Assembly: GCF_000166775.1 (NCBI RefSeq)
Contig: NC_014720.1
Location: forward strand, 2,636,001-2,700,000
Direction of reading: 5' to 3'
Length of the DNA stretch: 64,000 nucleotides
Origin: Caldicellulosiruptor kronotskyensis 2002
GTDB lineage: Bacteria > Bacillota > Thermoanaerobacteria > Caldicellulosiruptorales > Caldicellulosiruptoraceae
Shown here: in pieces, positions 27,461-48,485 of the stretch
How positions within the stretch are numbered: the stretch's first letter is position 1
How the letters are laid out: each line of letters begins with the position of its first letter
Made by a program: the position numbers and the translations under genes
The notes under the pieces: generated by a model
The model's input: the letters and a program-made list of their open reading frames with translations, nothing else
Told to the model about the DNA's origin: nothing
Database searches by the model: none

Positions 27461-30400
27461 ATTATTAACACTCATAGTTCAGATAAAACCTAAAGCAACA
27501 GGGCAGGTAAAGTTTACAGGTAACGAGTTTACATCCCTCATAGTTCAGATAAAACCGAAGTTTGCGGTAGGTATGCAAATGAAGTATATCATTGTTTACA
27601 TCCCTCATAGTTCAGATAAAACTAGTTCAGCAAAGGCGTAGCTATTCAGGGCATAGCAGTTTACATCCCTCATAGTTCAGATAAAACGCAACAGGAAAAA
27701 CAACAATTTTTGACGCATTCACAGTTTACATCCCTCATAGTTCAGATAAAACAATCCTTATCATCCAGATTTGTATTGTTCGCTTGATGGTTTACATCCC
27801 TCATAGTTCAGATAAAACTTATTAGGTTTGAATTATTATGACGAACAATTATTTGTTTACATCCCTCATAGTTCAGATAAAACCAGTTTTGGTACTTAAC
27901 AAGAAGGACTTAAAAGCATGTTTACATCCCTCATAGTTCAGATAAAACGTATCTTCAGGTGCTGTCTGTGTTGAAATATCATCGTTTACATCCCTCATAG
28001 TTCAGATAAAACAATTTCCTAGCCTCCTCAATTGTGATTCTGCCTTCAGTTTACATCCCTCATAGTTCAGATAAAACCTTCTCTATATGTAGCTCTCTCA
28101 TAATCTTCCACCAGTTTACATCCCTCATAGTTCAGATAAAACATCAAAAGAAGCAGATGAAGATACAGCAGCTTTAGCAGGTTTACATCCCTCATAGTTC
28201 AGATAAAACGCAAATCGAAACATTGCAAAAACAAGTAGACTTTTTGAGTTTACATCCCTCATAGTTCAGATAAAACTCTTCGTTAGTTATTTGCATGTCA
28301 AAGTAAATGTCTTGGCCAGTTTACATCCCTCATAGTTCAGATAAAACTCTGTCAGAGTCAGTTTTTGTTCGACATTGATTTTAAGGTTTACATCCCTCAT
28401 AGTTCAGATAAAACCGACAGCGATATTTTGAGAGTCTGCAAGAACAAGCTTTGTTTACATCCCTCATAGTTCAGATAAAACAAGATTGAAGAATATTTAA
28501 GTGAATTACGTAAGACAGTTTACATCCCTCATAGTTCAGATAAAACGACACTATAATTGAAAAATGAATGTAATCAAAAAATGTATACATCCCTCATAGT
28601 TCAGATAAAACTCACATACTTGTTTCCCTAAGTATCTTGATCCTGAGGTTTACATCCCTCATAGTTCAGATAAAACCAAAAGTTCATAGAAGACAAAAAA
28701 ATACTGTATTCAGTTTACATCCCTCATAGTTCAGATAAAACAGGACGAAGTGGTAAGTGGAAGGGTTGTTCTTTTGACGTTTACATCCCTCATAGTTCAG
28801 ATAAAACTCTATTGTTTTTATAAATCATAGCCAAAATGGTGCTGGTTTACATCCCTCATAGTTCAGATAAAACCGATATAGAAGACTCTTTGATACAAGG
28901 ACTTATAACATGTTTACATCCCTCATAGTTCAGATAAAACATAAATCCATCGTAATTGAGATTTGAGAATGCCCCAGCGTTTACATCCCTCATAGTTCAG
29001 ATAAAACAAAGACTTTCAGTGTTACTAAAAAAATTATCTCAGCTGTTTACATCCCTCATAGTTCAGATAAAACATCGTTGTAAAAGAATATATTGATGAA
29101 GCGGTATCGTTTACATCCCTCATAGTTCAGATAAAACAACAAGGCGAGGTGAAAAGATGAAGAGAGAAATAAAGTTTACATCCCTCATAGTTCAGATAAA
29201 ACCTTCCCAAAATGCATCAACGAAAATGTTCACGTAGTTGTTTACATCCCTCATAGTTCAGATAAAACGGTTGTAAGTGAGACGACTCTCACGTATGCAA
29301 CCGTGTTTACATCCCTCATAGTTCAGATAAAACAACGCAGCAGTGTAAAAGAGCCATCTAAAACATATGGTTTACATCCCTCATAGTTCAGATAAAACTG
29401 TTCAGCATGAGGAAAAAAGTGAATTTAACATTGACATGCGTTTACATCCCTCATAGTTCAGATAAAACTATCTCGCCAAGCCCCTGCTCAAGAAAGAGCT
29501 TCAAAGTTTACATCCCTCATAGTTCAGATAAAACTTGATATATCCCTTGATAAACAAGGCAATCTAATAAGGTTTACATCCCTCATAGTTCAGATAAAAC
29601 ACAGTACCAGCTATATTAAAAGCTCTCGCATTATTTCGTTTACATCCCTCATAGTTCAGATAAAACTTTATAGCTACTGATAACCTTGTCCATATTTCCG
29701 ATAGTTTACATCCCTCATAGTTCAGATAAAACCATTGCTCTATCCTCGGTCGATTTCGTACAACAATATGTTTACATCCCTCATAGTTCAGATAAAACCA
29801 TTGCTGCTTTGTTACATTGGTGCTGGTTGTCCATGGTTTACATCCCTCATAGTTCAGATAAAACCTTCAGGAACGCATAAACGAAGAAGGGCCTATTGAA
29901 GTTTACATCCCTCATAGTTCAGATAAAACTGGCAATGGCGAGGTGTTGCGTTGAGGAGCAGTGCATGTTTACATCCCTCATAGTTCAGATAAAACCGACA
30001 CTTCAGACGCTGCAGGGAAGTATGTAGACAGAGTTTACATCCCTCATAGTTCAGATAAAACCAAGAGATTGAAAAACCCTTGATTGTAACAAAAAAGGGT
30101 TTACATCCCTCATAGTTCAGATAAAACAAATTTTAAATTCTTAAAACACTTGATTTGTCTGGCGTTTACATCCCTCATAGTTCAGATAAAACTATGACAG
30201 CGCCTTTTATAAACGACAGCTGAAGAAAAAGTTTACATCCCTCATAGTTCAGATAAAACCAAGGCTGGGCTGGAATAGGGTATCATTTTTATGTCGTTTA
30301 CATCCCTCATAGTTCAGATAAAACATTTCCTCGCTTGCAATGTTTAAATTAGTAGATAAACAGTTTACATCCCTCATAGTTCAGATAAAACTTCACCTCA

Positions 30401-33400
30401 TAATTTTGTAAATCTTTTGATTAGATGGTTTACATCCCTCATAGTTCAGATAAAACAAACTATATAACGCAGAAATTTATACCCTCAATGATAGGTTTAC
30501 ATCCCTCATAGTTCAGATAAAACATTCCAGAGGCGGATGTTGAAAAAGTAAAAAAACATCGTTTACATCCCTCATAGTTCAGATAAAACCAGGTAGTTTT
30601 TATACATTAATTAGACAATTTCAACAGTTTACATCCCTCATAGTTCAGATAAAACTCTTGAAATACCTATTGATTATAAAGACGTCAACGAGGTTTACAT
30701 CCCTCATAGTTCAGATAAAACACTTAAAATAAAAGAAAAAGGGTGGCGAATAAGAGACGTTTACATCCCTCATAGTTCAGATAAAACCATCTTTTAGCCC
30801 TCTTAAGTTCATATAATCTGCAAGGTTTACATCCCTCATAGTTCAGATAAAACTTGAATATAATTATCTATTTTTTCGTTCCACTCAAAATGTTTACATC
30901 CCTCATAGTTCAGATAAAACTTTTTTAATACTATCAATATATTCAATTTTATTAATTGTTTACATCCCTCATAGTTCAGATAAAACAAACTCAATAACAA
31001 ATGCAGACGAGTATTGTTTAGAGGTTTACATCCCTCATAGTTCAGATAAAACATATGATGCGCGTGTAGTTTCGATTAATCGCAATAGGTTGTTTACATC
31101 CCTCATAGTTCAGATAAAACTCAACAACATTAAACATATTAATCTCGGCCGAACTAATGTTTACATCCCTCATAGTTCAGATAAAACAAAGATTTGCCAA
31201 ACATATTAGCCAATGCCTGAAATTCGTTTACATCCCTCATAGTTCAGATAAAACTGAAAAAGAAATTTTAGCAATGTATATGGTGGTTGAAGTTTACATC
31301 CCTCATAGTTCAGATAAAACTTGTTCAATTTTCTGTTCAATATACTCTTTAATGCCTTGTTTACATCCCTCATAGTTCAGATAAAACTATCACAAGCTTC
31401 ATAACATAATTACCAGTTAATAAGTTTACATCCCTCATAGTTCAGATAAAACGAAACACAAGCTGGGTATCAACCGATGGGGCTAATAAGTTTACATCCC
31501 TCATAGTTCAGATAAAACTTTACAGTATTCGATTGCCTAATTCCACCCTTGATGTTTACATCCCTCATAGTTCAGATAAAACCATCGCCTCACAGGATGA
31601 AGTCTTAGAGTTTCTTACAGTTTACATCCCTCATAGTTCAGATAAAACTTTGTGTAGGTTTTAATTAAATATTCAAACAATGCTACGTTTACATCCCTCA
31701 TAGTTCAGATAAAACTGTTCACAATTTCTGGGGCATTGACATTACTTTTATGTGGTTTACATCCCTCATAGTTCAGATAAAACTATGCTGTTGATTATGC
31801 GCTATTTTCAAGGGTTAAAGAGTTTACATCCCTCATAGTTCAGATAAAACTCCCAACATTGGCTCTACTGAAACAAATCTTACCGCTGCGTTTACATCCC
31901 TCATAGTTCAGATAAAACTCATCGATGACTTGGGCAAGGAGAAGGTAACAGATGTTTACATCCCTCATAGTTCAGATAAAACCATGATGGACTTGACTTT
32001 GAACTTTGTCAATATCAGTTTACATCCCTCATAGTTCAGATAAAACATTTCCTTTTTATCACCGCGCACATACCAATTGATTTCGTTTACATCCCTCATA
32101 GTTCAGATAAAACTAAATTATTGCTTTCATAGTAATATCCAGCATTGTAGTTTACATCCCTCATAGTTCAGATAAAACTAATACGTCTGCCCATTGATTT
32201 CAGCAATCTCTGTGTTTACATCCCTCATAGTTCAGATAAAACTGGGGTAAGATAGTATCGACAATTTCAACTGCAGGAAGTTTACATCCCTCATAGTTCA
32301 GATAAAACTTGTAATACAGCTTGACAAAGCACGAAATTTAAGATAGTTTACATCCCTCATAGTTCAGATAAAACTGGGATGGTCCAGGCAATGAGAAAAA
32401 ATTAAGAATGTTTACATCCCTCATAGTTCAGATAAAACACCTATTCTTTTCTGTAACATACCCAGACATATTATCGTTTACATCCCTCATAGTTCAGATA
32501 AAACGAGAGCTTAACTGTGGCGAAACAGTTGCAAAAAATCAGTTTACATCCCTCATAGTTCAGATAAAACCAGTTTTGGTACTTAACAAGAAGGACTTAA
32601 AAGCATGTTTACATCCCTCATAGTTCAGATAAAACAAGAAGAAAACAACTTAGTATTGGTCGAGCAGTTGTGTTTACATCCCTCATAGTTCAGATAAAAC
32701 TCCCTCAACTCCATAAATTTCAATTATTCTTCCCCTGTTTACATCCCTCATAGTTCAGATAAAACTATGCACTTGATATTAAACCGACTTTTACTGAAGT
32801 ATCGTTTACATCCCTCATAGTTCAGATAAAACCTGGTGGCAAACCAACAGAACTTGCCACGACTGTTTTGTTTACATCCCTCATAGTTCAGATAAAACTC
32901 TCTTCTAAGTTTGCCGTAAAGGCAAGGACCTCTTGCGTTTACATCCCTCATAGTTCAGATAAAACCAGTAAAACTTCTTTTACACATGAATACATACCAA
33001 ACACGTTTACATCCCTCATAGTTCAGATAAAACAAGAACTTATGACCGTCTTATAGAAATGTGTTATCCAGGTTTACATCCCTCATAGTTCAGATAAAAC
33101 AACATGCTACCAGACGCAGACGCAGGTGTAATTAAAGTTTACATCCCTCATAGTTCAGATAAAACTGCTTCCCTGTGCGATTGCGGCTCAAAGTATGCGT
33201 AGTTTACATCCCTCATAGTTCAGATAAAACCTTCCATTAAAACATCACCTACTTTCTATACTTTTTGTTTACATCCCTCATAGTTCAGATAAAACAGGCC
33301 AGTGAAGCCATTAAGGCAAGAGATGATATTGAAGTTTACATCCCTCATAGTTCAGATAAAACAAGGCCACATGTCCAATATGTGGTGAGGCAACAACTAG

Positions 33401-36400
33401 TTTACATCCCTCATAGTTCAGATAAAACCATCCATTTATCTGCTTCAGAACCGGGTCCTTCTTTAGTGTTTACATCCCTCATAGTTCAGATAAAACGATG
33501 AACTATATAAAACAACTCAACGCCTTTTATGATGTTTACATCCCTCATAGTTCAGATAAAACCTTGGGATACATGAGGAGAGGCTAAAGAATCTTGAGGA
33601 AGTTTACATCCCTCATAGTTCAGATAAAACCATAGAAGAGAAGGTGAATGAGATGTGCGTTAAACTGTTTACATCCCTCATAGTTCAGATAAAACTGGAC
33701 GACGTATCTACTGGACGCTGAAAAGGGTATACAGGTTTACATCCCTCATAGTTCAGATAAAACCAAGAAAAAGCGTTGATAATGGCTTGTAGAAGGATAG
33801 AAGTTTACATCCCTCATAGTTCAGATAAAACTTCAAACCTTCCTTAAGTTTTTTCATCATTTCCTTTGTTTACATCCCTCATAGTTCAGATAAAACTAGA
33901 TATCAGGAAAACGACATTAAGCTTAAAATCAGATTGTTTACATCCCTCATAGTTCAGATAAAACCTGGATTTAACAGGCGCAACAGTGAAGCTGGTAATA
34001 AGGTTTACATCCCTCATAGTTCAGATAAAACCCTTTTTATTTCCTCGACAATTGCGTAAAGCTCACTGTTTACATCCCTCATAGTTCAGATAAAACTCCA
34101 TGCTGTCAACTGCCGAGATGATAATCCCCTCTTGTTTACATCCCTCATAGTTCAGATAAAACAATAATAACAGTAACAAGAGCACTATATTCTCTTTGTT
34201 TACATCCCTCATAGTTCAGATAAAACTATGACAGCGCCTTTTATAAACGACAGCTGAAGAAAAAGTTTACATCCCTCATAGTTCAGATAAAACCATTGCA
34301 AATAAAGCAATTAAGGCAGCTTTAGTAAAAAGTTTACATCCCTCATAGTTCAGATAAAACGGAAATGTTGTTTTCGACCCTCGGCTGTTCAAAAACGTTT
34401 ACATCCCTCATAGTTCAGATAAAACTATCCCTTTATTTTCACTTTCTTGAAAAGCAAACCAGTTTACATCCCTCATAGTTCAGATAAAACTTCGTCCAGT
34501 AGAACTACGTCGTATTTTTTCATGAAAGTTTACATCCCTCATAGTTCAGATAAAACATGTCGAATTCGTAATGTTCAGTTTTGCCCAGAAACGTTTACAT
34601 CCCTCATAGTTCAGATAAAACACGTACCATTTGTTCCAGCCCGAACCGCCCCAACGATGTTTACATCCCTCATAGTTCAGATAAAACCAATAAGCCAAAT
34701 TTACAAAATACAGGACAAACAATAAGTTTACATCCCTCATAGTTCAGATAAAACAGTTGTTGAAGCGAAAGAAGATAGCGCCGCTACAAGTGTTTACATC
34801 CCTCATAGTTCAGATAAAACAGTATGAAGTGAAGCACATAAATATGAGAAATTATTTCGTTTACATCCCTCATAGTTCAGATAAAACTTATTGGAGTGTA
34901 TACAGGAGCAGTTCTTGTTTGGTAGTTTACATCCCTCATAGTTCAGATAAAACTAGTTCTGGTGCATCAGGCGGTGCTATTCGGTCATTGTTTACATCCC
35001 TCATAGTTCAGATAAAACACTTCTTGAACCTTTTGTATCAATTCTGCGTATTCACCGTTTACATCCCTCATAGTTCAGATAAAACTATTACATATTGCTT
35101 GTCCACAATGTCATAGCCAAGGTTTACATCCCTCATAGTTCAGATAAAACTAGATTAAAACAAGCAGGATTAATTGACTTTAAACCGTTTACATCCCTCA
35201 TAGTTCAGATAAAACTGTCACATTGAATTCCTTACCAACCTCATCCAAAGTGGTTTACATCCCTCATAGTTCAGATAAAACAAGACATGAAAAAAATCCT
35301 GCCAATTTTCATTGATGTTTACATCCCTCATAGTTCAGATAAAACAGGTCTCTTTTAAAAACTAATTAAAGAATAACTAAAGGTTTACATCCCTCATAGT
35401 TCAGATAAAACCGGGAGCTGAGTTTTGCTTGTCAAAATATATTCTTGCGTTTACATCCCTCATAGTTCAGATAAAACCTTGTGTTGTTCTTCTACATCGA
35501 TCACCGCTTCAATATTTACATCCCTCATAGTTCAGATAAAACTTTATTTCACTAAGCAAGTTTATCATTGTCCCAAAAATGTTTACATCCCTCATAGTTC
35601 AGATAAAACTTAAAATATCCGAAGTCATTACACCGGCTTTCTATGAGTTTACATCCCTCATAGTTCAGATAAAACAGAACTGGGGTAAAATAGCTTCAAT
35701 CTTTGCAACAACGTTTACATCCCTCATAGTTCAGATAAAACCTTCAAAGTCTTGTCTTAGAGCTTCAACATCTCTGACGTTTACATCCCTCATAGTTCAG
35801 ATAAAACTGGTGGTTTGAGCCGAGACAGACGACACTCTTACTTGAGTTTACATCCCTCATAGTTCAGATAAAACAGACAAAAGCCTGCGAATTGTGGCAC
35901 TTACAGATAATTGTTTACATCCCTCATAGTTCAGATAAAACAGCTTCTTTTAAAGACAATATGAGGTAAGAAGTTATTGTTTACATCCCTCATAGTTCAG
36001 ATAAAACTAAGGATAGTCTTTCATCTCTCTCTCTGATTTATGTTTACATCCCTCATAGTTCAGATAAAACAATCTGTTAGACCACAAAAAAGACTACTTC
36101 AAACTACGTTTACATCCCTCATAGTTCAGATAAAACCTTCTACTTGCAAGTTTGTAAGTGCCCATTTTAAAACGTTTACATCCCTCATAGTTCAGATAAA
36201 ACTAAGCAAACATGGTTTGTGTGAACGCTGCGGTAGACCGTTTACATCCCTCATAGTTCAGATAAAACTTGGCAGAAGGGTTTATTGAATATTGCAAACA
36301 GAGGTTTACATCCCTCATAGTTCAGATAAAACTTTTGTACACTTCAGGGTCTTTTGGGACAGTTCCAGTTTACATCCCTCATAGTTCAGATAAAACTAAC

Positions 36401-39104
36401 TTTATCTCTTACAGTTTCTGTTGCAGGATTCCAGTTTACATCCCTCATAGTTCAGATAAAACTTACGGACTTTGCACATAAAACAACTCATGCAAAAGGG
36501 TTTACATCCCTCATAGTTCAGATAAAACAAGGTCGTTTATAATTATCTGTTTTCTTTCCTTAAGGTTTACATCCCTCATAGTTCAGATAAAACTTTATTT
36601 CACTAAGCAAGTTTATCATTGTCCCAAAAATGTTTACATCCCTCATAGTTCAGATAAAACTGAGTGTTTGCAGAATTTTTCTATAAATTCAATAGGCGTT
36701 TACATCCCTCATAGTTCAGATAAAACTTGAAGTCAAGGGCAAATCGCGACGTGCTAATAAAGGTTTACATCCCTCATAGTTCAGATAAAACTTGTTTGGG
36801 ATGAACTGTTATCAAGCTTCTCAGGTGGTTTACATCCCTCATAGTTCAGATAAAACTTTTTCAATTTAGTAGCCGTGTTTACGAGAACGTTGTTGTTTAC
36901 ATCCCTCATAGTTCAGATAAAACACTTCTTGTTGCTTGAATGTAAGTATCTTGATAAGCGTTTACATCCCTCATAGTTCAGATAAAACCATAACAGCATA
37001 CATACAAGTCCACCGACACAAGAGTTTACATCCCTCATAGTTCAGATAAAACGAAAGAGTTCAAGATGACACTTGAAGAATTTATAGAAAGTTTACATCC
37101 CTCATAGTTCAGATAAAACCCAATACATTGACTATCGCTTTTATCCCAAGATTGCATGTTTACATCCCTCATAGTTCAGATAAAACTTCACAAATATGAT
37201 TTTGAATTAAAAACTATGACAATGTTTACATCCCTCATAGTTCAGATAAAACAAAGATAGAAACAAAGTTGTTGAATTATTGGGACAGTAGTTTACATCC
37301 CTCATAGTTCAGATAAAACAAATCCTGCCAATCAAATTGCATCAAAATAAGAACAGTTTACATCCCTCATAGTTCAGATAAAACCTTGCAATTACTTCTA
37401 CAAATTTTATTTTCGCATTAGCGTTTACATCCCTCATAGTTCAGATAAAACGACAAAAAACAAAATAAAATACTTAGATTGTGTAGAAGTTTACATCCCT
37501 CATAGTTCAGATAAAACCAATACGGTTTATTAAACAATACATGCCAGACGTAGTTTACATCCCTCATAGTTCAGATAAAACAATGTACATACCTTACTGT
37601 TACCAACATTTCTTAACTCGTTTACATCCCTCATAGTTCAGATAAAACTTTACCAACTGACAGATGTTCATTTTCACATCTTTGCGTTTACATCCCTCAT
37701 AGTTCAGATAAAACGAGTGTTTGTAAGTGTTATTGTCTGTACTTCACCTTCTGTTTACATCCCTCATAGTTCAGATAAAACTTTGAACAATGCACTAAAA
37801 ACGTTCATATAGCAATTTTGTTTACATCCCTCATAGTTCAGATAAAACAAAGAATGCGACATAAGTCCAAGAACCTTTTACCGAGTTTACATCCCTCATA
37901 GTTCAGATAAAACTAAAAGCCATTTCTAACAAAAAGTCGCGTATAAAAGTTTACATCCCTCATAGTTCAGATAAAACTTGTATAAAAATTCAAGATTTTA
38001 GTATAAAAATTAAAAAGTTTACATCCCTCATAGTTCAGATAAAACTTACCTGATCCCAGTTAGAAACACCTAATGTAAAAAAGTTTACATCCCTCATAGT
38101 TCAGATAAAACTGTGCAACAGCAAATAAATGAGCTGTTAACAAAAGATTAGTTTACATCCCTCATAGTTCAGATAAAACTACATTCAAACAGACGCTTAT
38201 AAAAATCTTCAAAATGTTTACATCCCTCATAGTTCAGATAAAACTTATCTACAACGCTAACCCTGTCGCCCAACAACAATGCGTTTACATCCCTCATAGT
38301 TCAGATAAAACTGTTGAATTTTTAAAAACTGTCGACACTTCTGATGCAGCGTTTACATCCCTCATAGTTCAGATAAAACTAACAATCTTTGAAGCATAAG
38401 ATGATCATTTATATATGTTTACATCCCTCATAGTTCAGATAAAACTCAGTTGCTATTCCTTGAACCCATAATTATTTATTGCGTTTACATCCCTCATAGT
38501 TCAGATAAAACCAGGGTACCGGTAAAACATTAGTAGCTATTGCTCTTATGTTTACATCCCTCATAGTTCAGATAAAACTGCATATTATTGCTACAGTTCA
38601 CGACGCTATTTTAAGTTTACATCCCTCATAGTTCAGATAAAACTATAAAAATTCACTTTCACTATTTATTTCTAAGATGGTTTACATCCCTCATAGTTCA
38701 GATAAAACAGGCGTATAATTTCAACTATATCATCGAGGGGTATTTGTTTACATCCCTCATAGTTCAGATAAAACCAACTTTTGAGACGCTAAAAAAACGG
38801 TCGGGAGTATGTTTACATCCCTCATAGTTCAGATAAAACAACGAAGAGGTATTCCTGACATCATAGGGTGTTATAAGTTTACATCCCTCATAGTTCAGAT
38901 AAAACAAAGAAGTTGTTTATGAAGAAGAGTACAGAGATTCTAGGTTTACATCCCTCATAGTTCAGATAAAACTGATATCTCCGAAAAATCAGCTAAACCT
39001 TATCTTTCCGTTTACATCCCTCATAGTTCAGATAAAACTTGGTCAGCAGGGTTAGTCCCGCTGCCAATTGGCTTCGTTTACATCCCTCATAGTTCAGATA
39101 AAAC
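27461..39104 (-). CRISPR. Very long CRISPR array: 177 repeats, 176 spacers
   Basis: The repeat is 29 bases. In the transcribed (minus) sense it begins GTTTTATCTG and ends GGATGTAAAC, so Cas6 cleavage would leave the 5' handle ATGTAAAC. I traced every unit by eye and counted 177 repeat starts, with unit lengths of 63-71 bases (spacers 34-42, mostly 36-38). The leftmost repeat (27461-27489) is degenerate in its first ten plus-strand bases, which marks the trailer end. Single-base variants occur at 28583 (GTATAC) and 35514 (ATTTAC). Orientation follows from the handle, the trailer decay and the leader promoter on the right. Three spacers are exactly duplicated: 27884/32571, 30193/34227 and 35543/36594. 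Apparent open frames in the array are repeat artefacts. Confidence 0.98.
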
Positions 39105-39341
39105 CCATTAATAATAAATATCCTCTTTTCTAGGCTACATTTAAATTATAACCTATTAACAAATTTTTAACAACAAAAATAGATTGCAGCGAGGGGGCGG
39201 TTGGATTCTGTAAGGAGTTGGTAAAGAGTATTGAAGGTCTTGTAAGAAAAGAAGGCAGAAAGATTAAAATCATATTAGGCCTCGCTGCAAAATGGTTTAG
39301 TTTGGAAATGCACATTCAACCCTTGTTTTATTTTAAAACCT
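39105..39341 (-). promoter_or_regulatory. CRISPR leader with crRNA promoter
   Basis: This 237-base non-coding stretch separates cas2 from the first repeat. On the minus strand TTGTTA (39173-39168), a 17-base spacer and TATAAT (39150-39145) form a promoter starting transcription near 39138, about 34 bases before the array. The right-hand part contains a GC-richer inverted pair, GCAGCGAGG (39186-39194) with CCTCGCTGC (39282-39290), that could form a long-range stem. The small open frame here is not protein-like. Confidence 0.75.
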
Positions 39342-39605
39342 TCAAATTATAACAGAATCATAGTTTTTTTCTTGTCCTAAAACCTTTTTGTTGCATACAA
39401 GTTTATAATCCATCTCATAAAAATACACCGAATCTTCATCCTTTTCTATGACCGATAAAAGTTCCCGTTTGCATTTTTCAAGCTTGCCGTATGTAATTTC
39501 TCCTTCAAAAACTGAGTTTTGAACCCATGTGAAGTATTTTTTCAAAATTTTTCTTACCTTGTTGACTCTCTTTTCATTGATGTCGTATGTAACTATTACA
39601 AAGAT
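39342..39605 (-). CDS. cas2: Cas2, with ATC at the expected start codon
   Basis: Adaptation nuclease-fold protein that pairs with Cas1. The frame encodes FVIVTYDINEKRVNKV, including the catalytic-type aspartate of VTYDI, then RKILKKYFTWVQNSVFEGEI (a typical Cas2 segment) and a normal C-terminus. Counted from the codon before FVIVTYD, the protein is 87 residues, the usual Cas2 length. That codon, 39605-39603, is ATC, not ATG. A Shine-Dalgarno-like GGGGAGTGAT ends 5 bases before it, right for initiation there. The ATG at 39612 overlapping that site is in another frame and stops after 12 codons. Within the frame, the next ATG-type start would remove the N-terminal strand. Either AUC initiates weakly or Cas2 is truncated. 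Confidence 0.85.
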   Translation of the reverse strand: MFVIVTYDINEKRVNKVRKILKKYFTWVQNSVFEGEITYGKLEKCKRELLSVIEKDEDSVYFYEMDYKLVCNKKVLGQEKNYDSVII

Positions 39606-39631
39606 GCTTCATCACTCCCCTGAGGAATAAT

Positions 39632-40618
39632 TTACCACCATGCTTTGAGTGGTGAATATACCTGATCGCCTATAAAATGCTTTATCAGCTTGTAGCACTC
39701 AAGTCTTATAAATCCCTTATAGGAAACATTTCTATTCAGCTGTCTGTGACGAACTGTAGTCTCAAGCTTGCTTTGAAATTCTTTTAAAAATATTTTCTTC
39801 CCTTCTTGATTTAGATAACAATAATTTAAATCTTCATCAAAATGCTCAAGCTCTAACTGATGGTTATTAAGAAGCTTAAATATTACAGTATCAACAATCA
39901 ATGGCTTGAAAATCTCAGAAATATCAAGGCTAAGCGAAAATCTCTTTTCGCTTGGTTCATGCAAAAAACTTATGCTTGGGTCAAGCTGAGTTTGATAAAT
40001 TTGAGATAAAGTGTGACTGTAAATCAAGCTATTTCCAAACGAAATAAGAGCATTGATGGGATTTGTAGGTGGTCTTTTTTCTCTTTTTTCCATTGAAAAA
40101 TCTTCTGGAAGAAATTGATTAAATGATTGATAATATATATTTCGAATTCGCCCCTCAAGTCCCATTAGCTCTGAAATACTTGATATATTAAACCTTCCTT
40201 TTTCCCACTCATCCTCAATTGCAATCAAATAAGCCTCAGCTTCCTTTCTTTCTCTCAAATTTCGCATCATATGGTATACTGCCGACTCGACAAAACAATA
40301 TGCTAAAAATAATCTTTTTTCTCTATCAAGATAATGAAGGGCTTGCCTAACCACAACATCTCCAGACACATTTTTCTTGCGTGGCAAGAAACTCCCCGCA
40401 TAAAAACCATAGTAGTTGTAAAAATGAAGAACAATACCGTATTGAGAGATATAGTTTAGAGCTTTTGTGTTCAAATCGACTTCTCCAAAGATGTGAATCT
40501 GTTCAACGTTTTCTATATCAATTGCCTTCTTTTCAGCACCCATTTCAAAATAAAGTGTATTTTCATGCCTTCTTAGTCTTCCATTTGAAGTAATATATAA
40601 GCTCTTTTGCATTACCAT
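39632..40618 (-). CDS. cas1: Cas1 integrase (type I-B)
   Basis: About 328 residues. Cas1 inserts new spacers at the leader-repeat junction. The N-terminal beta domain starts KSLYITSNGRLRRHENTLYF. The metal site is visible as the Glu in GLEGRIRN, the His in SFLHEPSEKR and the acidic DISEIFKP. PPTNPINALISFGNSLIY is also diagnostic. The ATG at 40618 follows GGGGG by 5 bases and begins 1 base after the cas4 stop; an earlier in-frame ATG (40639) lies inside cas4. It ends 26 bases before the cas2 frame. All catalytic residues appear present. Confidence 0.95.
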   Translation of the reverse strand: MVMQKSLYITSNGRLRRHENTLYFEMGAEKKAIDIENVEQIHIFGEVDLNTKALNYISQYGIVLHFYNYYGFYAGSFLPRKKNVSGDVVVRQALHYLDREKRLFLAYCFVESAVYHMMRNLRERKEAEAYLIAIEDEWEKGRFNISSISELMGLEGRIRNIYYQSFNQFLPEDFSMEKREKRPPTNPINALISFGNSLIYSHTLSQIYQTQLDPSISFLHEPSEKRFSLSLDISEIFKPLIVDTVIFKLLNNHQLELEHFDEDLNYCYLNQEGKKIFLKEFQSKLETTVRHRQLNRNVSYKGFIRLECYKLIKHFIGDQVYSPLKAWW

Positions 40619-40619
40619 T

Positions 40620-41144
40620 TTACCCCCAGCAAAACTCAAAGTACGCGCACGACTTGCAAATCTTTTGTTTTTGCGCAGGCGGCGGAATAGATTTTGTTGT
40701 AATTTCTTCTATCTCTTTTAAAGCTTGCTTTACTTTTTCTTCGTACTCAGGGGTAAGTTTTAGCACCTCTTTTCTTTTTTCTTTTGGATAATTGATTATA
40801 CCTTGCTTTTGAACTCCTTTTTGCTTGAGATAGTAAAGGTAATACATAACCTGCATTATGTCAGCTTCTTTCATTTTACTGCTATACTTTACTTCTCTGA
40901 TACTGCCGTCTGACATTATGTCTATTGTGATTATGTTATCAATCAAGATTTCCTTACTTTTTTCTTTAGGATATGAGTATTCATGCAAAAGTCTTCCTAA
41001 AAGAACCTTATCTGATTTGTTTTCGAAGGTTATATTCTTGCTAAAAAGCCATAGTTTTCTTTTGCAAACATAAAGATAGTTAATTTTTATAGCCTGGAAT
41101 TTTAGGTCTTGAAATTCTTGAGAATTTTCCATGCCAAATTTCAC
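40620..41144 (-). CDS. cas4: Cas4 exonuclease
   Basis: A 174-residue RecB-like nuclease with an iron-sulfur cluster that trims prespacers and helps choose PAM and orientation. The first cluster cysteine is in YLYVCKRKLWLF (C27), the last three in CKSCAYFEFCWG (C163, C166, C172). The nuclease core is reduced to recognisable pieces: GRLLHEYSY, a strand reading REVKYSSK (lysine of the E-x-K motif) and KEADIMQVMYYLYYL. It lies between cas3 (8-base gap) and cas1 in the operon. Confidence 0.93.
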   Translation of the reverse strand: MKFGMENSQEFQDLKFQAIKINYLYVCKRKLWLFSKNITFENKSDKVLLGRLLHEYSYPKEKSKEILIDNIITIDIMSDGSIREVKYSSKMKEADIMQVMYYLYYLKQKGVQKQGIINYPKEKRKEVLKLTPEYEEKVKQALKEIEEITTKSIPPPAQKQKICKSCAYFEFCWG

Positions 41145-41152
41145 TCTCTTTT

Positions 41153-43891
41153 TTAGAGAATAAAACTATCTTCTATACTTTTCTCTTCTTCAGCTTTTAT
41201 TAAGCCTTTCTCATTATTGTATACAAAATCATTGTTCAAATATACACCTGAAAGCCAACGTTTAAGTCTTCTTTTCCACTTACTATCCATCTCAATTTCA
41301 ATTGTAAGTTTATTATAAACAGACTCTAAGTCTTTTGAACAAAAATGCATAACAATATATTTTGACAAGACACCCCTCTTAAATTGCGTAAAAAGCATCC
41401 TTTTATTTTCTTTGCCCTGTTCTATTGTTTTTATAAATTCTTGAATATCCTTTTTAAATTCTTCAAACTTGTTCTTGGGAATAATCTGTACACTATAAAT
41501 TTCTCTAAAAATCTCTTCTGCTTCAGATTTTTTATCTGACATCAATCCACTATCTAATACAATAAGGGTATTGTAAAAATCCTTTAAATATCTACCTTTC
41601 TTTTTCATTGTAGAATAAAATAAAGTTACCAAAATGTACTTATCATATTCTGACAGTTCAATTTCTAACTGGTCTAATTTTGCTAACCAATCATGACTGA
41701 AAAGAAGAGAATTATAGACACTTTCTTTATTCTTACCTTTATCCTTTTTACCTTTATTTTTATTATTTTTTTGAACAAGGATTAAGTCTGCAAACTCCTC
41801 TCTAAAAAACTCCTCAATACCATCATCGTCAAATTCTTGTTGAAAAGTTTTGTCTAATAAGCTCCCCAAATTAGATTGATTATATCTTGCTTTCCACAAC
41901 CAAGCAAGTGAAAGATTAATAAGTTCCTTTGTATAAACTCTCTGCCCGCCTGATTGCAAATTATTGCTATCAAATATAAGTACATTTACATTTGGCTCAT
42001 TATGATATTCTTTTTCAAAAGCTCTAAAAGGGTAATCTAATTTTAATTTCTCATCATTGCTTTTATTGACAACTTCATTATTTTGATAAATATATCTTCT
42101 CAAAATTCTCCCCATTCTTTGGACTAAGCAGTCAAGCGGGCATATCTCTGTATACAAAAAATCTGCATCAATATCTAAAGAAGCCTCAACTACTTGGGTT
42201 GCAACAAGTATTTTGCCAATATTCTCGGTTTTAGGATTCTTAAACTCATTATTTATATAATCAAATTCTTTACTTTCTCTATCTTTCAAAGTAAATCTGG
42301 AATGAATAAGAAAAATTCTTTCTTTCAATTGTCCATCTGCACTATTTTTCAATTTATCATACACACTCTGCGCAAAACCTACAGTATTCAATATTATAAG
42401 TACTCTTTTGTTATTATTTGCTTTTTGCAAAATTTCTCTAATTATTTCATCAGGAATATCAAATTGCTCATTTTCGATTTTAATTAAATTTAGTTTTATT
42501 TTGTGTTTGTAAAGTTTACTAAATGCATCTTTTTCTTCCTCATAAATATTTATAGTATTTACATTATCATAAAAGTCAGGAATTACATCTTTTAAATAAT
42601 CCATTACAAATTTTGGCATAGTAGCAGTCATTAAAAGAAATTTCCCACCCATTTTATATACCCATTCCATAAATTTTGCAATTATAGCACAAGCTTTTGG
42701 CGAATATGCCTGTATTTCATCAACTGCTATTCGGGAATATGAAAGAGAAACAAATATCTTTTCAAATCCAGGAGGCCTCAATGCATATGGAAAAAATTGG
42801 TCTCCTGTTGAGATTATTACAGGATATGATAGTTGTTTTGAAAGCTCATACAACTTTATTGAGCCAGTTTCATCTGAATTTTTATCCAACAAATAAATAT
42901 CAGCATCTGAATGCAAAAGCCCTGTCTTGTCACATCCAAATACATTTTTAGCTCTTTCAAAAGTGTTATTTACTGATGCTCTGAGAGGTAAAGTATAAAA
43001 AAGCTTTTCTCCTGATGACCATAAAAAAGCAAACTCTGTTTTACCATAACCTGTTGGTGCTATTAGAATAACGTTTTTTTCTGAACATTTTTCTAACTCT
43101 TTAAATTGCCAAGCATTATCTCCAATTTTACTTGAAATAGTTTTAGCAACATATTCTTTTTCTGGTGCATCAATTTCAACATTTTCTAACTCTTCTTCTG
43201 CTCCCTCTTCTTCGCACCACGAAGCAAAATGGTCGCAACGCTGTAAAATCCCTGATATAAAAATCCATTCTTTTTTAACTTCACCCCTGAGTGGATGATA
43301 GTCAAATTTGTAAGGAGGAACTACTAAATTCACAAAAAGTCTGTGGTTTAAAATAGCTTTCAGCCATGTCATATTAACATTGATTAATTCTTTATATCCA
43401 TCATAATTTGAAAGCTTTCCAAACTCTTTAGCAAGATTTTCTTTTAATTCATCTTTCCATTCATGAATTACCTTTTCACACACCTGTTTCAATTGCTTAT
43501 TTTCTAAAGAAATTATCTCATCAAAATTATCTCTCCAATGATGATACGCAATCGCTGAAATTATATAATTTAAATATTCTTCACTATCAAACTTTTCTTT
43601 TAGCTTGTCTATATTAATCCAAAAAACAGAAAATAATGAATGTGGAATTTCATAAATCACATCCCTTGGATAATATTCAATATTTCCTAAAGCTTTTATT
43701 TGAAAAGATGGCAATACTTTCCCCAAATCATGAAGAAATATTGCAACTTCAGTCGCATTCAAGATAAATTGATTATCTGAAAATTTCTTTTTAAAAAAGT
43801 TAAAAACCTTTAGTACATCAGAGACATGGTCTGATAAAGTAACTATTTTATTATTTTTCTCATCCACCGACTTTGCCCAAATTTCACTCAT
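41153..43891 (-). CDS. cas3: Cas3 nuclease-helicase (type I-B)
   Basis: About 912 residues. Cas3 degrades DNA recognised by Cascade. The N-terminal HD nuclease has SDHVSDVLKVF, FLHDLGKVLPSF and AYHHWRDNFDE. The superfamily 2 helicase follows: Walker A in LIAPTGYGKTEF, AVDEIQAYSPKA for motif II, LLMTATMP for motif III, and VATQVVEASLDIDADF with LVQRMGRILRR for motifs V-VI. I start at ATG 43891, with GAGGAGGG upstream, overlapping the end of cas5; an ATG 15 bases earlier lacks spacing. The HD and helicase parts are fused in the usual order, and all motifs seem intact. Confidence 0.95.
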   Translation of the reverse strand: MSEIWAKSVDEKNNKIVTLSDHVSDVLKVFNFFKKKFSDNQFILNATEVAIFLHDLGKVLPSFQIKALGNIEYYPRDVIYEIPHSLFSVFWINIDKLKEKFDSEEYLNYIISAIAYHHWRDNFDEIISLENKQLKQVCEKVIHEWKDELKENLAKEFGKLSNYDGYKELINVNMTWLKAILNHRLFVNLVVPPYKFDYHPLRGEVKKEWIFISGILQRCDHFASWCEEEGAEEELENVEIDAPEKEYVAKTISSKIGDNAWQFKELEKCSEKNVILIAPTGYGKTEFAFLWSSGEKLFYTLPLRASVNNTFERAKNVFGCDKTGLLHSDADIYLLDKNSDETGSIKLYELSKQLSYPVIISTGDQFFPYALRPPGFEKIFVSLSYSRIAVDEIQAYSPKACAIIAKFMEWVYKMGGKFLLMTATMPKFVMDYLKDVIPDFYDNVNTINIYEEEKDAFSKLYKHKIKLNLIKIENEQFDIPDEIIREILQKANNNKRVLIILNTVGFAQSVYDKLKNSADGQLKERIFLIHSRFTLKDRESKEFDYINNEFKNPKTENIGKILVATQVVEASLDIDADFLYTEICPLDCLVQRMGRILRRYIYQNNEVVNKSNDEKLKLDYPFRAFEKEYHNEPNVNVLIFDSNNLQSGGQRVYTKELINLSLAWLWKARYNQSNLGSLLDKTFQQEFDDDGIEEFFREEFADLILVQKNNKNKGKKDKGKNKESVYNSLLFSHDWLAKLDQLEIELSEYDKYILVTLFYSTMKKKGRYLKDFYNTLIVLDSGLMSDKKSEAEEIFREIYSVQIIPKNKFEEFKKDIQEFIKTIEQGKENKRMLFTQFKRGVLSKYIVMHFCSKDLESVYNKLTIEIEMDSKWKRRLKRWLSGVYLNNDFVYNNEKGLIKAEEEKSIEDSFIL

Positions 43892-44711
43892 CTTTACCCT
43901 CCTCAAGGTCGGCTAAAAATACAGGGATATTATCTTCTGTATCAAAATAAGTAGTAATATCACCAAAATCCCCATTATTTAGTTTCACTTTGACATATCT
44001 AAAGTTTCTAACTCCATTCTGAATTTTATAAAAAGAAGTTATATTGTAAGCCAAGCCATTAACCTTTTTAAAGTCAAAATTTCCATCAAATCCAAAAACT
44101 TTTTCAGGAACCCAGAAAAAATTTTTGTAGTTTCCATTAATTTTATCAATTATCAAATCAACATATCTTATATCTTCAATTAATATCCAGTCTTCAGCTC
44201 TGCCTAAATGTATAACAGAAGTTCTATTGATAGGATTTTCAAAACTACTTTTTATAATATCCAAAAACTCTTTGTCACAATGATACAAATAAATTAAAAT
44301 TCTTACGTTATGCAAAACATCTGCAATACATGGCATCTGCCCACCGATGTGTTCAATGTGGCCACCAACATATCGATTTGTTATAGAGCCAAACCTTTCT
44401 ATATGATTTCCTATATTCAGGTTTCTCAACCAAAAGTATTCTTCAACTTTGGTTTCAAAATTTCCACAAACTCCCATTTTAATTTGTTTCAATTTGTGAT
44501 ATAAACATTTGCAGTTTTTATTTACACAAGGCTCCTCTTGCCCTGGTATATTCTTAATACCAAGAACATTTGCTATCAAACCTAAAACCGTCGAATAAGG
44601 TGGAATAGGGTATGTATGTCTTCTTTGATAACTAAATGGTATCCTAAAATGTGCTTGCGGTTGATATATCTTCATTTTTAAAGTATAAATAGAATTTTTA
44701 GTCTCTTTCAT
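43884..44711 (-). CDS. cas5: Cas5 (type I-B, Tneap-like)
   Basis: A 275-residue Cascade subunit that caps the 5' handle of crRNA. The N-terminal segment KMKIYQPQAHFRIPFSYQRR followed by HTYPIPPYSTVLGLIANVLG is characteristic of the Cas5 of Tneap-type I-B systems. A cysteine-rich insertion (CVNKNCKCLYHKL, near residue 62-74) is unusual and could bind metal. A second methionine at residue 13 is an alternative start. The gene overlaps cas3 by 8 bases. A 48-base gap to cas7 is the largest in this part of the operon. Confidence 0.9.
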   Translation of the reverse strand: MKETKNSIYTLKMKIYQPQAHFRIPFSYQRRHTYPIPPYSTVLGLIANVLGIKNIPGQEEPCVNKNCKCLYHKLKQIKMGVCGNFETKVEEYFWLRNLNIGNHIERFGSITNRYVGGHIEHIGGQMPCIADVLHNVRILIYLYHCDKEFLDIIKSSFENPINRTSVIHLGRAEDWILIEDIRYVDLIIDKINGNYKNFFWVPEKVFGFDGNFDFKKVNGLAYNITSFYKIQNGVRNFRYVKVKLNNGDFGDITTYFDTEDNIPVFLADLEEGKDE

Positions 44712-44759
44712 TTCTCTTCCCTTCCTGATTATTTGCCTATGGATGGACTGCTTGTTGTA

Positions 44760-45878
<1,119 letters not shown>

Positions 45879-46424
45879 TTAACCCTCCTTATTTTTTTCC
45901 TTATTCTTTTCCTTCTCTTCACCTAACAATCCACTTAAAAATGAATATACCATCACTTTAAAGCTTTCAACAGAATACTTTGGACTAAAAGCTTTTACAA
46001 AATCTTTGCCAACTTCCTCTTGTGCATTTACAAATTCTCTCAGAATAATATGAAAAACTTCTTCTCTCTTTCCTAACCTTGTTAATTCAAGAACTCTGAA
46101 AGTTATTGCTCTGGGCACTTTTTTGTCTTTATCAAAAAACCTATCATAAACCTTACTTTTTCTTAAATTTTCTCCATACCATCTTAACCTTTCACAAAGT
46201 TCACTAACATTCTGTAAAGAAAATTCCTTATACAAACTCCAAAGTTTAATTTTGTCTTCTCCTTTCGCATTATTAGCTGCCCATTCTAACATTTTTTCCA
46301 GTTCAAATCCAAGATTCTTGTATGAATTAATTGTCTTTGCAAAATCCTCAAATTTAATTTTATTATGAAAAATCGATTCTTCTAATGCTCTCTTAAGCTC
46401 ATCAAAATTAAACCTCTCATTCAT
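45879..46424 (-). CDS. Small helical protein between cas8 and cas7; probable separate Cascade small subunit (Cas11-like)
   Basis: A 181-residue, charged and apparently all-helical protein (FNFDELKRALEESIF, LEKMLEWAANNAK, SELCERLRWYGENLRKS, YSVESFKVMVYSFLSGLL) with a lysine/glutamate-rich tail. It begins 1 base after the cas8 stop and ends 3 bases before cas7. I do not recognise the sequence. In many type I-B systems a small subunit comes from the C-terminal part of Cas8, by internal translation. Here Cas8 is short (420 residues), and this gene occupies the place of that C-terminus, so a detached small subunit is the reasonable inference. An unrelated accessory protein is possible. Confidence 0.7.
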   Translation of the reverse strand: MNERFNFDELKRALEESIFHNKIKFEDFAKTINSYKNLGFELEKMLEWAANNAKGEDKIKLWSLYKEFSLQNVSELCERLRWYGENLRKSKVYDRFFDKDKKVPRAITFRVLELTRLGKREEVFHIILREFVNAQEEVGKDFVKAFSPKYSVESFKVMVYSFLSGLLGEEKEKNKEKNKEG

Positions 46425-46425
46425 A

Positions 46426-47688
46426 TCAGAGCCTCCTTTTTTGTTTTTCCATTATCAATAGATAAAGTTCAAAAAGATTTTGAGAAATTTTTATTAAATC
46501 ATTTTTTTCTTTAGCTAATCGAAAGTAATGAGCAATAAACTTATCATCTTCGTCTGATTCATCATCATTTCCTTTGTTACTTTCTCCTGACAGTTTTTTT
46601 AAGGCTATCTTAAAAACCTTTTCACCAATTTCCATAATTCTTCCATAATTTTGATTTAATACTAAATTTAAGATGCTCGTTTCTCCAATTTCACTCAATA
46701 TGCTTGAAATTTTTCGATTCAAAAGTAACGAAATTACCTCATGAGGTAAACTATAAAAATCTATCTTATATTTTGGTTTCCCTTTAATTTTAAACATTAA
46801 TTTGCTGACAGCTTCAATATTCATCATAGTCCATTTCCCAAGCTGAATATTTGTTTTTAATGCCATCTCCATTACAGACATTCCCAATAACCTTCTTACA
46901 TCAGCTGTTTTTGCTTTCTCGTTAACAGCTTTGATATACTTATTCAAATACCACATCACTTGAAATGATTGAGCATTTATAAAAATTTCTGAACCGTCTT
47001 CAAGCTTAGTAAGAGCCAAATGATGATGGATAATAAAATATAAACATATCGGACAGATTCTTAACGATGTACTATTATTCCAAAATGAGTTTGGAAATTT
47101 TCCTACCGACGATCCTAATAAAGAAGAATGCATTAAGTCAAATTTAAAAAGTCTTTTTTCTAATTTGCTGTTTTCATCTGGCTCTACAGCTCTTTCAATT
47201 CCGCAAAAATCACATCTATGAGTAACTCTATTATTAGTTATAGAAAATAAATTTAGTAAAATTGTTATAAATTCTTTTCTATCTCCTTGTTGTACAAGGT
47301 TACGATATAGCATTTCATTGAAAAATAATTTATCAAAAGCTTTAATAAGTTTATAACCAAATCTCCCCATTGCAGCAAAATATTCTTTATGCTTTTCATT
47401 ATTACTTTGTTCTTTTTTTTCATCATTTTTCTTATTCTTTTTTTCTAACCATTCTTCAATATCATCATTCTCAGTTAAATACTCTACATAATAAACTAAA
47501 GATTTAGGTATATCTTCTTTACCTATTTTGACAGGTTCAAAAATTGCTTTATCTATAGCTAAACTACCATCTTCATTTAACCAACTTTCAACTACATCCT
47601 CACCTAATTCCCTTGAAATAACACTTAAAAATCCAATCACCGAAGCATTATAGAGCCAATTACCTGGATATAATATAAGCTTATCCAT
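46426..47688 (-). CDS. cas8: Cas8 large subunit (Cst1/Cas8b1-like)
   Basis: A 420-residue protein that recognises PAM in Cascade. The start DKLILYPGNWLYNASVIGFL is typical of Cst1, and two CxxC pairs form the zinc site: CDFCG (C159, C162) and CPIC (C212, C215). A low-complexity Lys/Asn/Glu linker spans about 82-100. The protein is mostly helical after residue 250 and ends in a basic KQKRRL. It is short for this family, and the following gene may supply the missing C-terminal small-subunit part. It lies 5 bases after cas6. Confidence 0.88.
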   Translation of the reverse strand: MDKLILYPGNWLYNASVIGFLSVISRELGEDVVESWLNEDGSLAIDKAIFEPVKIGKEDIPKSLVYYVEYLTENDDIEEWLEKKNKKNDEKKEQSNNEKHKEYFAAMGRFGYKLIKAFDKLFFNEMLYRNLVQQGDRKEFITILLNLFSITNNRVTHRCDFCGIERAVEPDENSKLEKRLFKFDLMHSSLLGSSVGKFPNSFWNNSTSLRICPICLYFIIHHHLALTKLEDGSEIFINAQSFQVMWYLNKYIKAVNEKAKTADVRRLLGMSVMEMALKTNIQLGKWTMMNIEAVSKLMFKIKGKPKYKIDFYSLPHEVISLLLNRKISSILSEIGETSILNLVLNQNYGRIMEIGEKVFKIALKKLSGESNKGNDDESDEDDKFIAHYFRLAKEKNDLIKISQNLFELYLLIMEKQKRRL

Positions 47689-47693
47689 TTTTC

Positions 47694-48485
47694 TTACCTC
47701 ACCACCTCTACAAACCCAAACCCTTGACCCCGTCTAAATCCTATGCCGTTTTGATACAGTTCTTTTAAATCCTCTGGGTCTCCTGATAGTTCAAACAAAC
47801 CAGAAAATCCTGTCAAAAACATTATATCTTTGCCTGTTGTTTCAACAAACTCAGAAATTCTGTGTTTTACAACAATCTTTTGAATATTTATTGGTCTGAA
47901 AGTCAACCTCTTTTGCAGTCCTTTGTTTTGCCCTCTCAAAAGACGAATATTTCTTATCCCAAAGTCAACAACTTCATTAAAAATGTCCTCAAAACCTTCA
48001 TCGTAAGGCAAAACTGGCACCTTTTTGTTGCCTTCTTTTTTCTCAATCAAAATTGGAGCAAATGTTTTGAACATCATAGTTGATCTAAATTGTTCTGGTT
48101 CTCTTACCAAATACATTCTCTTTAATTCAATTTTGCAGTTTTCTGTTAAGTGGCATGGATAGAGGCGATTGTTGAGTAAGCTATTGTACATGTTTACAAA
48201 AAATTCATAGTCGGATGTGGAAATATTTAGCATAATATCTCCTCTGAAAAAAACTGTATCATCTTGAAAGTTCATATTGGGAAGATTAACTGAAAAAACA
48301 AATGGCTTTTGCCATTTATTCTTTTTTTCACCCCACCAGTAAATTCTATTAAAGTAGTCTTTGTCATATAGAGAAAGGGCACTTTTTAAAAAACTCATAA
48401 AAATAGTTCTGTAGTAAACTGGAAGACTATGTCCCTCACTTTGATTTTCAATCACCTTAAAAATGAACTTTGCTCTCACGTACAA
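47694..48485 (-). CDS. cas6: Cas6 crRNA-processing endoribonuclease
   Basis: A 263-residue ferredoxin-fold RNase that cuts each repeat 8 bases before its end. A candidate general-base histidine is in SEGHSLPVYYRTIF (H19). The C-terminal glycine-rich RAMP loop is GIGFRRGQGFGFVEVV. The start listed is TTG 48485 (AGGTGG 4 bases upstream); GTG 48479 is an alternative with longer spacing. It is the first gene of the type I-B operon and the only Cas6 in the window, so it must make crRNAs for the Cmr complex too unless another copy exists elsewhere. Confidence 0.93.
   Translation of the reverse strand: MYVRAKFIFKVIENQSEGHSLPVYYRTIFMSFLKSALSLYDKDYFNRIYWWGEKKNKWQKPFVFSVNLPNMNFQDDTVFFRGDIMLNISTSDYEFFVNMYNSLLNNRLYPCHLTENCKIELKRMYLVREPEQFRSTMMFKTFAPILIEKKEGNKKVPVLPYDEGFEDIFNEVVDFGIRNIRLLRGQNKGLQKRLTFRPINIQKIVVKHRISEFVETTGKDIMFLTGFSGLFELSGDPEDLKELYQNGIGFRRGQGFGFVEVVR

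Follow-up and report, generated by a model that had tools for sequence, protein, structure and literature searches.

A conserved near-cognate AUH codon as the probable start of type I-B cas2 in Caldicellulosiruptor

The type I-B cas2 gene described here appears to be intact and to be translated from a near-cognate AUH codon (AUC, AUA or AUU) that is conserved throughout the genus, a reading to which we assign a probability of about 0.85. Judged by sequence comparison, a canonical start is absent, and the AUH codon, the Shine-Dalgarno (SD) site in front of it and the spacing between the two have been conserved.

The gene lies in the window, i.e., the whole 64,000-nt stretch of DNA that was analyzed (C1:2636001-2700000 of a closed 2.84-Mb genome, G000), at the end of a minus-strand type I-B operon with the gene order cas6, cas8b1, 181-aa ORF, cas7, cas5, cas3, cas4, cas1, cas2. 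The interference genes, cas3, cas5, cas7 (Cst2), the 181-aa ORF, cas8b1 (Cst1) and cas6, occupy positions 41153..48485 (minus strand). Cas4 (40620..41144, minus) is the first gene of the cas4-cas1-cas2 adaptation module, and cas1 (39632..40618, minus; type I-B, TIGR03641), whose orthologues align from the ATG at 40612, has its stop 26 nt before cas2. The 181-aa ORF (45879-46424, minus), located between cas8b1 and cas7, gave no NCBIfam match; from where it lies, it may encode a Cas11-like small subunit. The interval that separates cas2 from the repeats (39105..39341, minus) is the presumed array leader, assigned by position; it is followed by a CRISPR array (27527..39104, minus) that runs away from cas2 and contains 176 repeats of 29 bp and 175 spacers. 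All but two of the repeats (174 of 176) are identical, the two variants, starting at 35542 and 28611, being internal. Since the array holds 176 repeats and 172 distinct spacers out of 175, adaptation has worked in this lineage. The same genome carries a second cas4-cas1-cas2 module (L169:9591-11372, or G000 C1 ~2,726,591-2,728,372) that is ~40-46% identical to the first; its cas2, which shows 46% identity and is accompanied by a cas1 and a cas4 of its own, has an ATG start.

The cas2 coding frame (39342..39605, minus) contains 87 codons and a stop when read from ATC, and the stop-to-stop frame in the ORF translation of the window is 88 aa. Codons 1-87 match the Cas2 profile PF09827 (E=1.1e-24; 86.8 bits against a cut-off of 23.8), the frame also matches TIGR01573 (E=3.7e-15; 56 bits against a cut-off of 24.5), and the sequences of solved Cas2 structures align with it from residue 2 onward. 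Hallmarks of Cas2 are present: the N-terminal strand, the conserved Asp (YD at residues 7-8), and adjoining cas1 and array. On the minus strand, the region of the start reads GGGGAGTGAT GAAGC ATC TTT GTA ATA GTT ACA TAC GAC. As can be seen, the strong SD-like 10-mer GGGGAGTGAT (39611..39620, minus) ends exactly 5 bases upstream of the inferred start codon ATC (39603..39605, minus), as originally predicted from the window. The frame opens after TGA TGA AGC, then ATC, and since the TGA at 39611-39609 (minus strand), two codons before ATC, is in frame, an upstream in-frame start is excluded in the window. No canonical start is found between this stop and the first conserved residue (TGA AGC ATC); the first ATG, GTG or TTG of the frame is the TTG at codon 21. 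The nearby ATG at 39612 is in another frame, which ends after only 12 codons (MKHLCNSYIRHQ, then a stop), also in agreement with the original prediction, whose sequence details all proved correct. Duplex energies were calculated with the standard anti-SD sequence, because a pattern search for the 3′ end of the genome's own 16S rRNA gave no match. On this basis the SD duplex of the window cas2 is -13.0 kcal/mol, approximately within the strongest 5% of 282 sampled ORFs (median -9.05), and those of the cas2 copies range from -9.4 to -13.0 against the same median.

When 60 relatives were searched, cas2 orthologues with 90-97% identity turned up in each of the 11 sampled congeners, and also on one contig of a mixed assembly, G036. 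Altogether, 14 copies were read, the one in the window and 13 further copies from 12 assemblies (11 congeners), and they were compared at the codon where other Cas2 proteins, once aligned, have their initial Met. This codon is ATC, ATA or ATT in 14/14 copies and never ATG: ATC in the window, L003, L004 and L005, ATA in L006 and L009-L014, and ATT in L007 and L008. In the nearest outgroups, ATG is found at the same codon or one codon earlier. An in-frame stop is located 2-3 codons upstream of AUH in all copies except L008. A canonical codon stands between stop and AUH only in L007 and L012 (TTG at -2) and in L008 (GTG at -3); these codons, which sit within or right beside the SD site, could serve as starts in those species.

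The gap between cas1 and cas2 varies from ~27 to 257 nt and is not alignable, so that looking there for a conserved RNA structure was unproductive. Despite this, the last 20 nt before AUH keep a GGAGTGA-like SD, (A/G)GGAGTGA(T) in most copies, and an 8-9-nt spacer, so that conservation resumes exactly at SD, 8-9 nt and ATH. The recurring in-frame TGA upstream of cas2 is part of the SD motif itself. Initiation at AUC, which the original prediction regarded as rare but possible, is thus matched in every congeneric orthologue by an AUH codon with its SD and spacing. Neighboring codons were considered as starts and rejected: codon 0 is AGC, AAC, AAG, AAA, ACA or AGA in congeners, with no common near-cognate, and codon 4, which is also AUH, lies ~18 nt from the SD core.

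Several features of individual copies were observed. Genome G008 carries two cas4-cas1-cas2 modules (L166 and L167) beside different interference genes, with identical cas1-cas2 gap and cas2 start region (ATA). The cas2 of G004 (L014/L168) diverges after ~codon 64 and ends early (YFYEHSCNERK), possibly as a truncated copy; its start is still ATA. Across L156-L168, the adaptation module is conserved (cas1 88-96% identical), and the interference genes beside it range from 87% identity down to unrecognizable, as if modules had been exchanged within the genus.

The first 20 codons of cas2 are under purifying selection. Fourteen of them vary only synonymously, 3 are invariant and 3 change the amino acid (I/V or F/Y type); among codons 21-87, 47 vary only synonymously and 13 change the amino acid. 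Since codons 1-20 vary mostly synonymously, this segment is translated. On a tree of cas1 and cas2 whose length is 1.54 substitutions per site, at least five changes within the genus fall on the third position of the start codon, and they involve only A, C and T. That G never appears there is not statistically significant: of 30 four-fold sites at which A, C and T all occur, 11 likewise show no G. It follows that AUG has been neither maintained nor regained; the pattern falls within the four-fold-site background, so it is no proof of selection against AUG, nor does it prove the originally proposed idea that the weak start throttles adaptation.

The main rival to adaptive weakness accepts the same start site and differs only on purpose: AUH initiation would be real but non-regulatory, the weak start being inherited and tolerated either because the cell can do with little Cas2 or because the strong SD makes up for the poor codon. 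The third-base changes look neutral and the missing G lies within background, as this explanation would have it. Against it, at least 5 substitutions have occurred without a return to AUG, a strong SD has been kept, and similar starts recur in other lineages, which suggests more than drift. We regard a merely tolerated start as a serious contender, at somewhat less than even odds; that the weakness is adaptive is a guess to which we would give about an even chance.

Much less probable is a start at the GTG inside GGAGTGA (or at the window ATG, 39612) followed by a programmed +1 frameshift within four codons. A GTG is indeed present in most copies, mostly one base out of frame with cas2, but this is because the SD motif contains GTG, and a GTG that lies within the SD core cannot be served by the same SD. 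In L011/L164 the GTG frame stops (GTG ATT TAA) before the cas2 frame, and in L008/L161 the GTG is already in the cas2 frame. The bases between GTG and cas2 are not conserved and present no common slippery site, and the window ATG is missing in most relatives. These observations make the frameshift very improbable.

Initiation at a downstream canonical codon has even less in its favor. Codon 21 is TTG in the window, as it is in the majority of relatives, but not in G011, G002, G005 and G036, where the next canonical codons are at 28-60. A start at codon 21 would remove strand beta-1 and the conserved Asp8, and codons 1-20 are conserved as protein.

Loss of cas2 in this strain through a recent point mutation or single-base insertion, or its apparent loss through an error in sequencing, would fit the ATG, GTG or TTG starts of most cas2 genes outside the genus, but is refuted by comparison, since every congener has a codon of the same non-AUG class, the SD-to-codon lengths match those of relatives, and the frame is intact and under purifying selection. 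The original prediction had envisaged a single ATG-to-ATC change, or a newly broken gene; neither agrees with AUH at this position in every congeneric orthologue and with the selection acting on the frame. The alignment with cas2 of related strains that it called for upheld the non-AUG start, and 13 further copies with ATC, ATA or ATT spoke against a sequencing error or fresh mutation. Its preference against a frameshift was borne out: a one-base insertion after an ATGAAG start was rejected because G002 and G010 share the exact SD-to-codon length without having ATG (GTGATAGAACATC versus GTGATGAAGCATC), and hence there is no inserted base.

The classic gene with an AUU, AUA or AUC start is infC, which encodes initiation factor IF3 and is autoregulated by it. 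We located infC in all 12 genomes and read its start in eight; it is ATA in 8/8. In the window genome, the ATA is preceded by AGGAGGTG, and its distance from the SD core, 9 nt, is the same as that in cas2. The sequence AGGAGGTGTTTTAAT ATA AAT AAY AAA is found at infC in seven loci (G000, G007, G002, G010, G005, G009 and G003), and infC of G006 differs by one substitution (TTTTGAT ATA). Thus, infC resembles cas2 in its conserved AUH codon and strong SD; the two differ in that infC is autoregulatory, whereas for cas2, a gene of a defense operon, IF3 would be an external regulator.

As a control, 257 conserved genes from a 400-kb collinear sample and the window were compared with G006. A rough filter flagged 36 of the 257, and a check of SD sites left infC as the only clear case without a canonical start, together with one doubtful ORF. 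The cas2 gene was not flagged in this comparison because G006 has TTG at -2. In a conserved 375-aa ORF (beginning YGIHKGFERNS; G000 sample L171-L190), the first canonical codon is a TTG that lacks an SD and lies inside the aligned part, and an ATT is preceded by AGGTGAT; this is a possible further non-AUG start.

At the cas2 AUH codon, the strong SD, being at a fixed distance, would hold the 30S subunit so that the codon is set in the ribosomal P site. Initiator tRNA would insert fMet there, so that the protein begins MFVIVTYDIN..., as Cas2 proteins usually do. Of the three AUH bases this tRNA pairs with two, and IF3 rejects many such complexes; initiation would probably be several-fold weaker than at AUG, with IF3 discriminating against it as for infC. 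The integrase needs four Cas1 to two Cas2. Cas2, encoded by the last gene of the operon, would presumably be kept below Cas1, which would limit spacer acquisition.

Canonical type I-B cas2 encodes the same Cas2 protein in the same cas4-cas1-cas2 order but differs in its start; in the samples read here, ~95% of all cas2 genes outside the genus begin at ATG, GTG or TTG. Of 127 cas2 loci taken from other organisms, 118 have a canonical start near model position 1, and the exceptions include ATT (L061, L120/L211, L222) and CTG (L096/L226, L230, L232). The phylum was also sampled evenly (149 genomes, of which 99 have cas2); of the 130 cas2 places read there, 125 passed a lenient start test; the failures were L255 (ATA), L329 (ATA), L341 (ATT), L316 (CTG) and L293, which has only far starts. 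Two of the places that passed did so only by virtue of a GTG within the gene, at codon 3; their true start is ATT (G184, L222/L260; G039, L274). Counting these and G080 and G153 (CTG), which belong to the same sample, non-canonical cas2 starts amount to ~8/150, or 5%, in the phylum. When motif errors were discarded, 10-11 of 237 distinct cas2 sequences were judged by eye to be real, compared with 1-2 of 257 control genes (Fisher p 0.002-0.009), an excess that is provisional, as a single genome supplied the control genes and the set of 237 is not fully random.

Of what a phylum-wide scan for the ATH pattern retrieved beyond the genus, just two loci proved to be Cas2: L120 and L131, the latter a broken copy. 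ATH also occupies this position in loci of Acetivibrio (L054, L056) and Hazenella (L053), but these were left out of the count because an in-frame GTG lies just upstream. Three sets look like small conserved lineages: G038/G074 (ATA and ATT; two families, same surroundings), G184/G039 (ATT, type I-C-like) and the CTG-starting group. Closely similar Cas2 proteins from several families of the phylum begin at CTG (L230, L232, L096/L226), and the CTG of L230 stands directly after a TAA stop.

Comparable starts are known for other genes. In Streptomyces, IF3 represses initiation at the GTC start of sigR, a start that determines the SigR:RsrA ratio (PMC5472188). Like cas2, sigR has a conserved non-canonical start after an extensive ribosome-binding site that holds an out-of-place GTG, is genus-restricted, varies in the third base between species and sets protein ratios within an operon; it differs in its codon (GTC/GTT), in encoding a sigma factor and in being experimentally proven (PMC5472188). 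In Staphylococcus aureus, infC (AUA), ccpN (AUA) and cvfC1 (AUU) all have an extended SD, and the two tested, ccpN and cvfC1, reach ~10-30% of AUG output (PMC13009471). These two share with cas2 conserved AUH starts, extended SD and a Bacillota host; they are different genes, and their starts were shown by Ribo-Ret and reporters (PMC13009471). Since AUH starts with extended SD are weak elsewhere, Cas2 would by analogy be low and IF3-sensitive relative to Cas1, and our best functional guess is that the weak cas2 start throttles adaptation. Near-cognate starts are an established kind of gene control, to which cas2 would seem to be a new addition; in the open-access papers searched, no cas2 with such a start was described.

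A broader proposal, which we consider doubtful, is that near-cognate starts are a recurrent, selected and IF3-sensitive brake on Cas2 that arose independently in several Bacillota lineages and CRISPR subtypes; if it is true, the rate of spacer acquisition is tied to the state of the translation machinery. The means by which cells hold spacer acquisition low enough to escape self-targeting are established in only a few model systems, and a genus-wide weak cas2 start would offer a one-codon handle on the question. Gene finders that accept only ATG, GTG and TTG likely miss or mis-start such cas2 genes, which would give intact adaptation modules the appearance of defective ones. That such starts recur in other lineages points to more non-AUG control of defense genes than has been counted so far.
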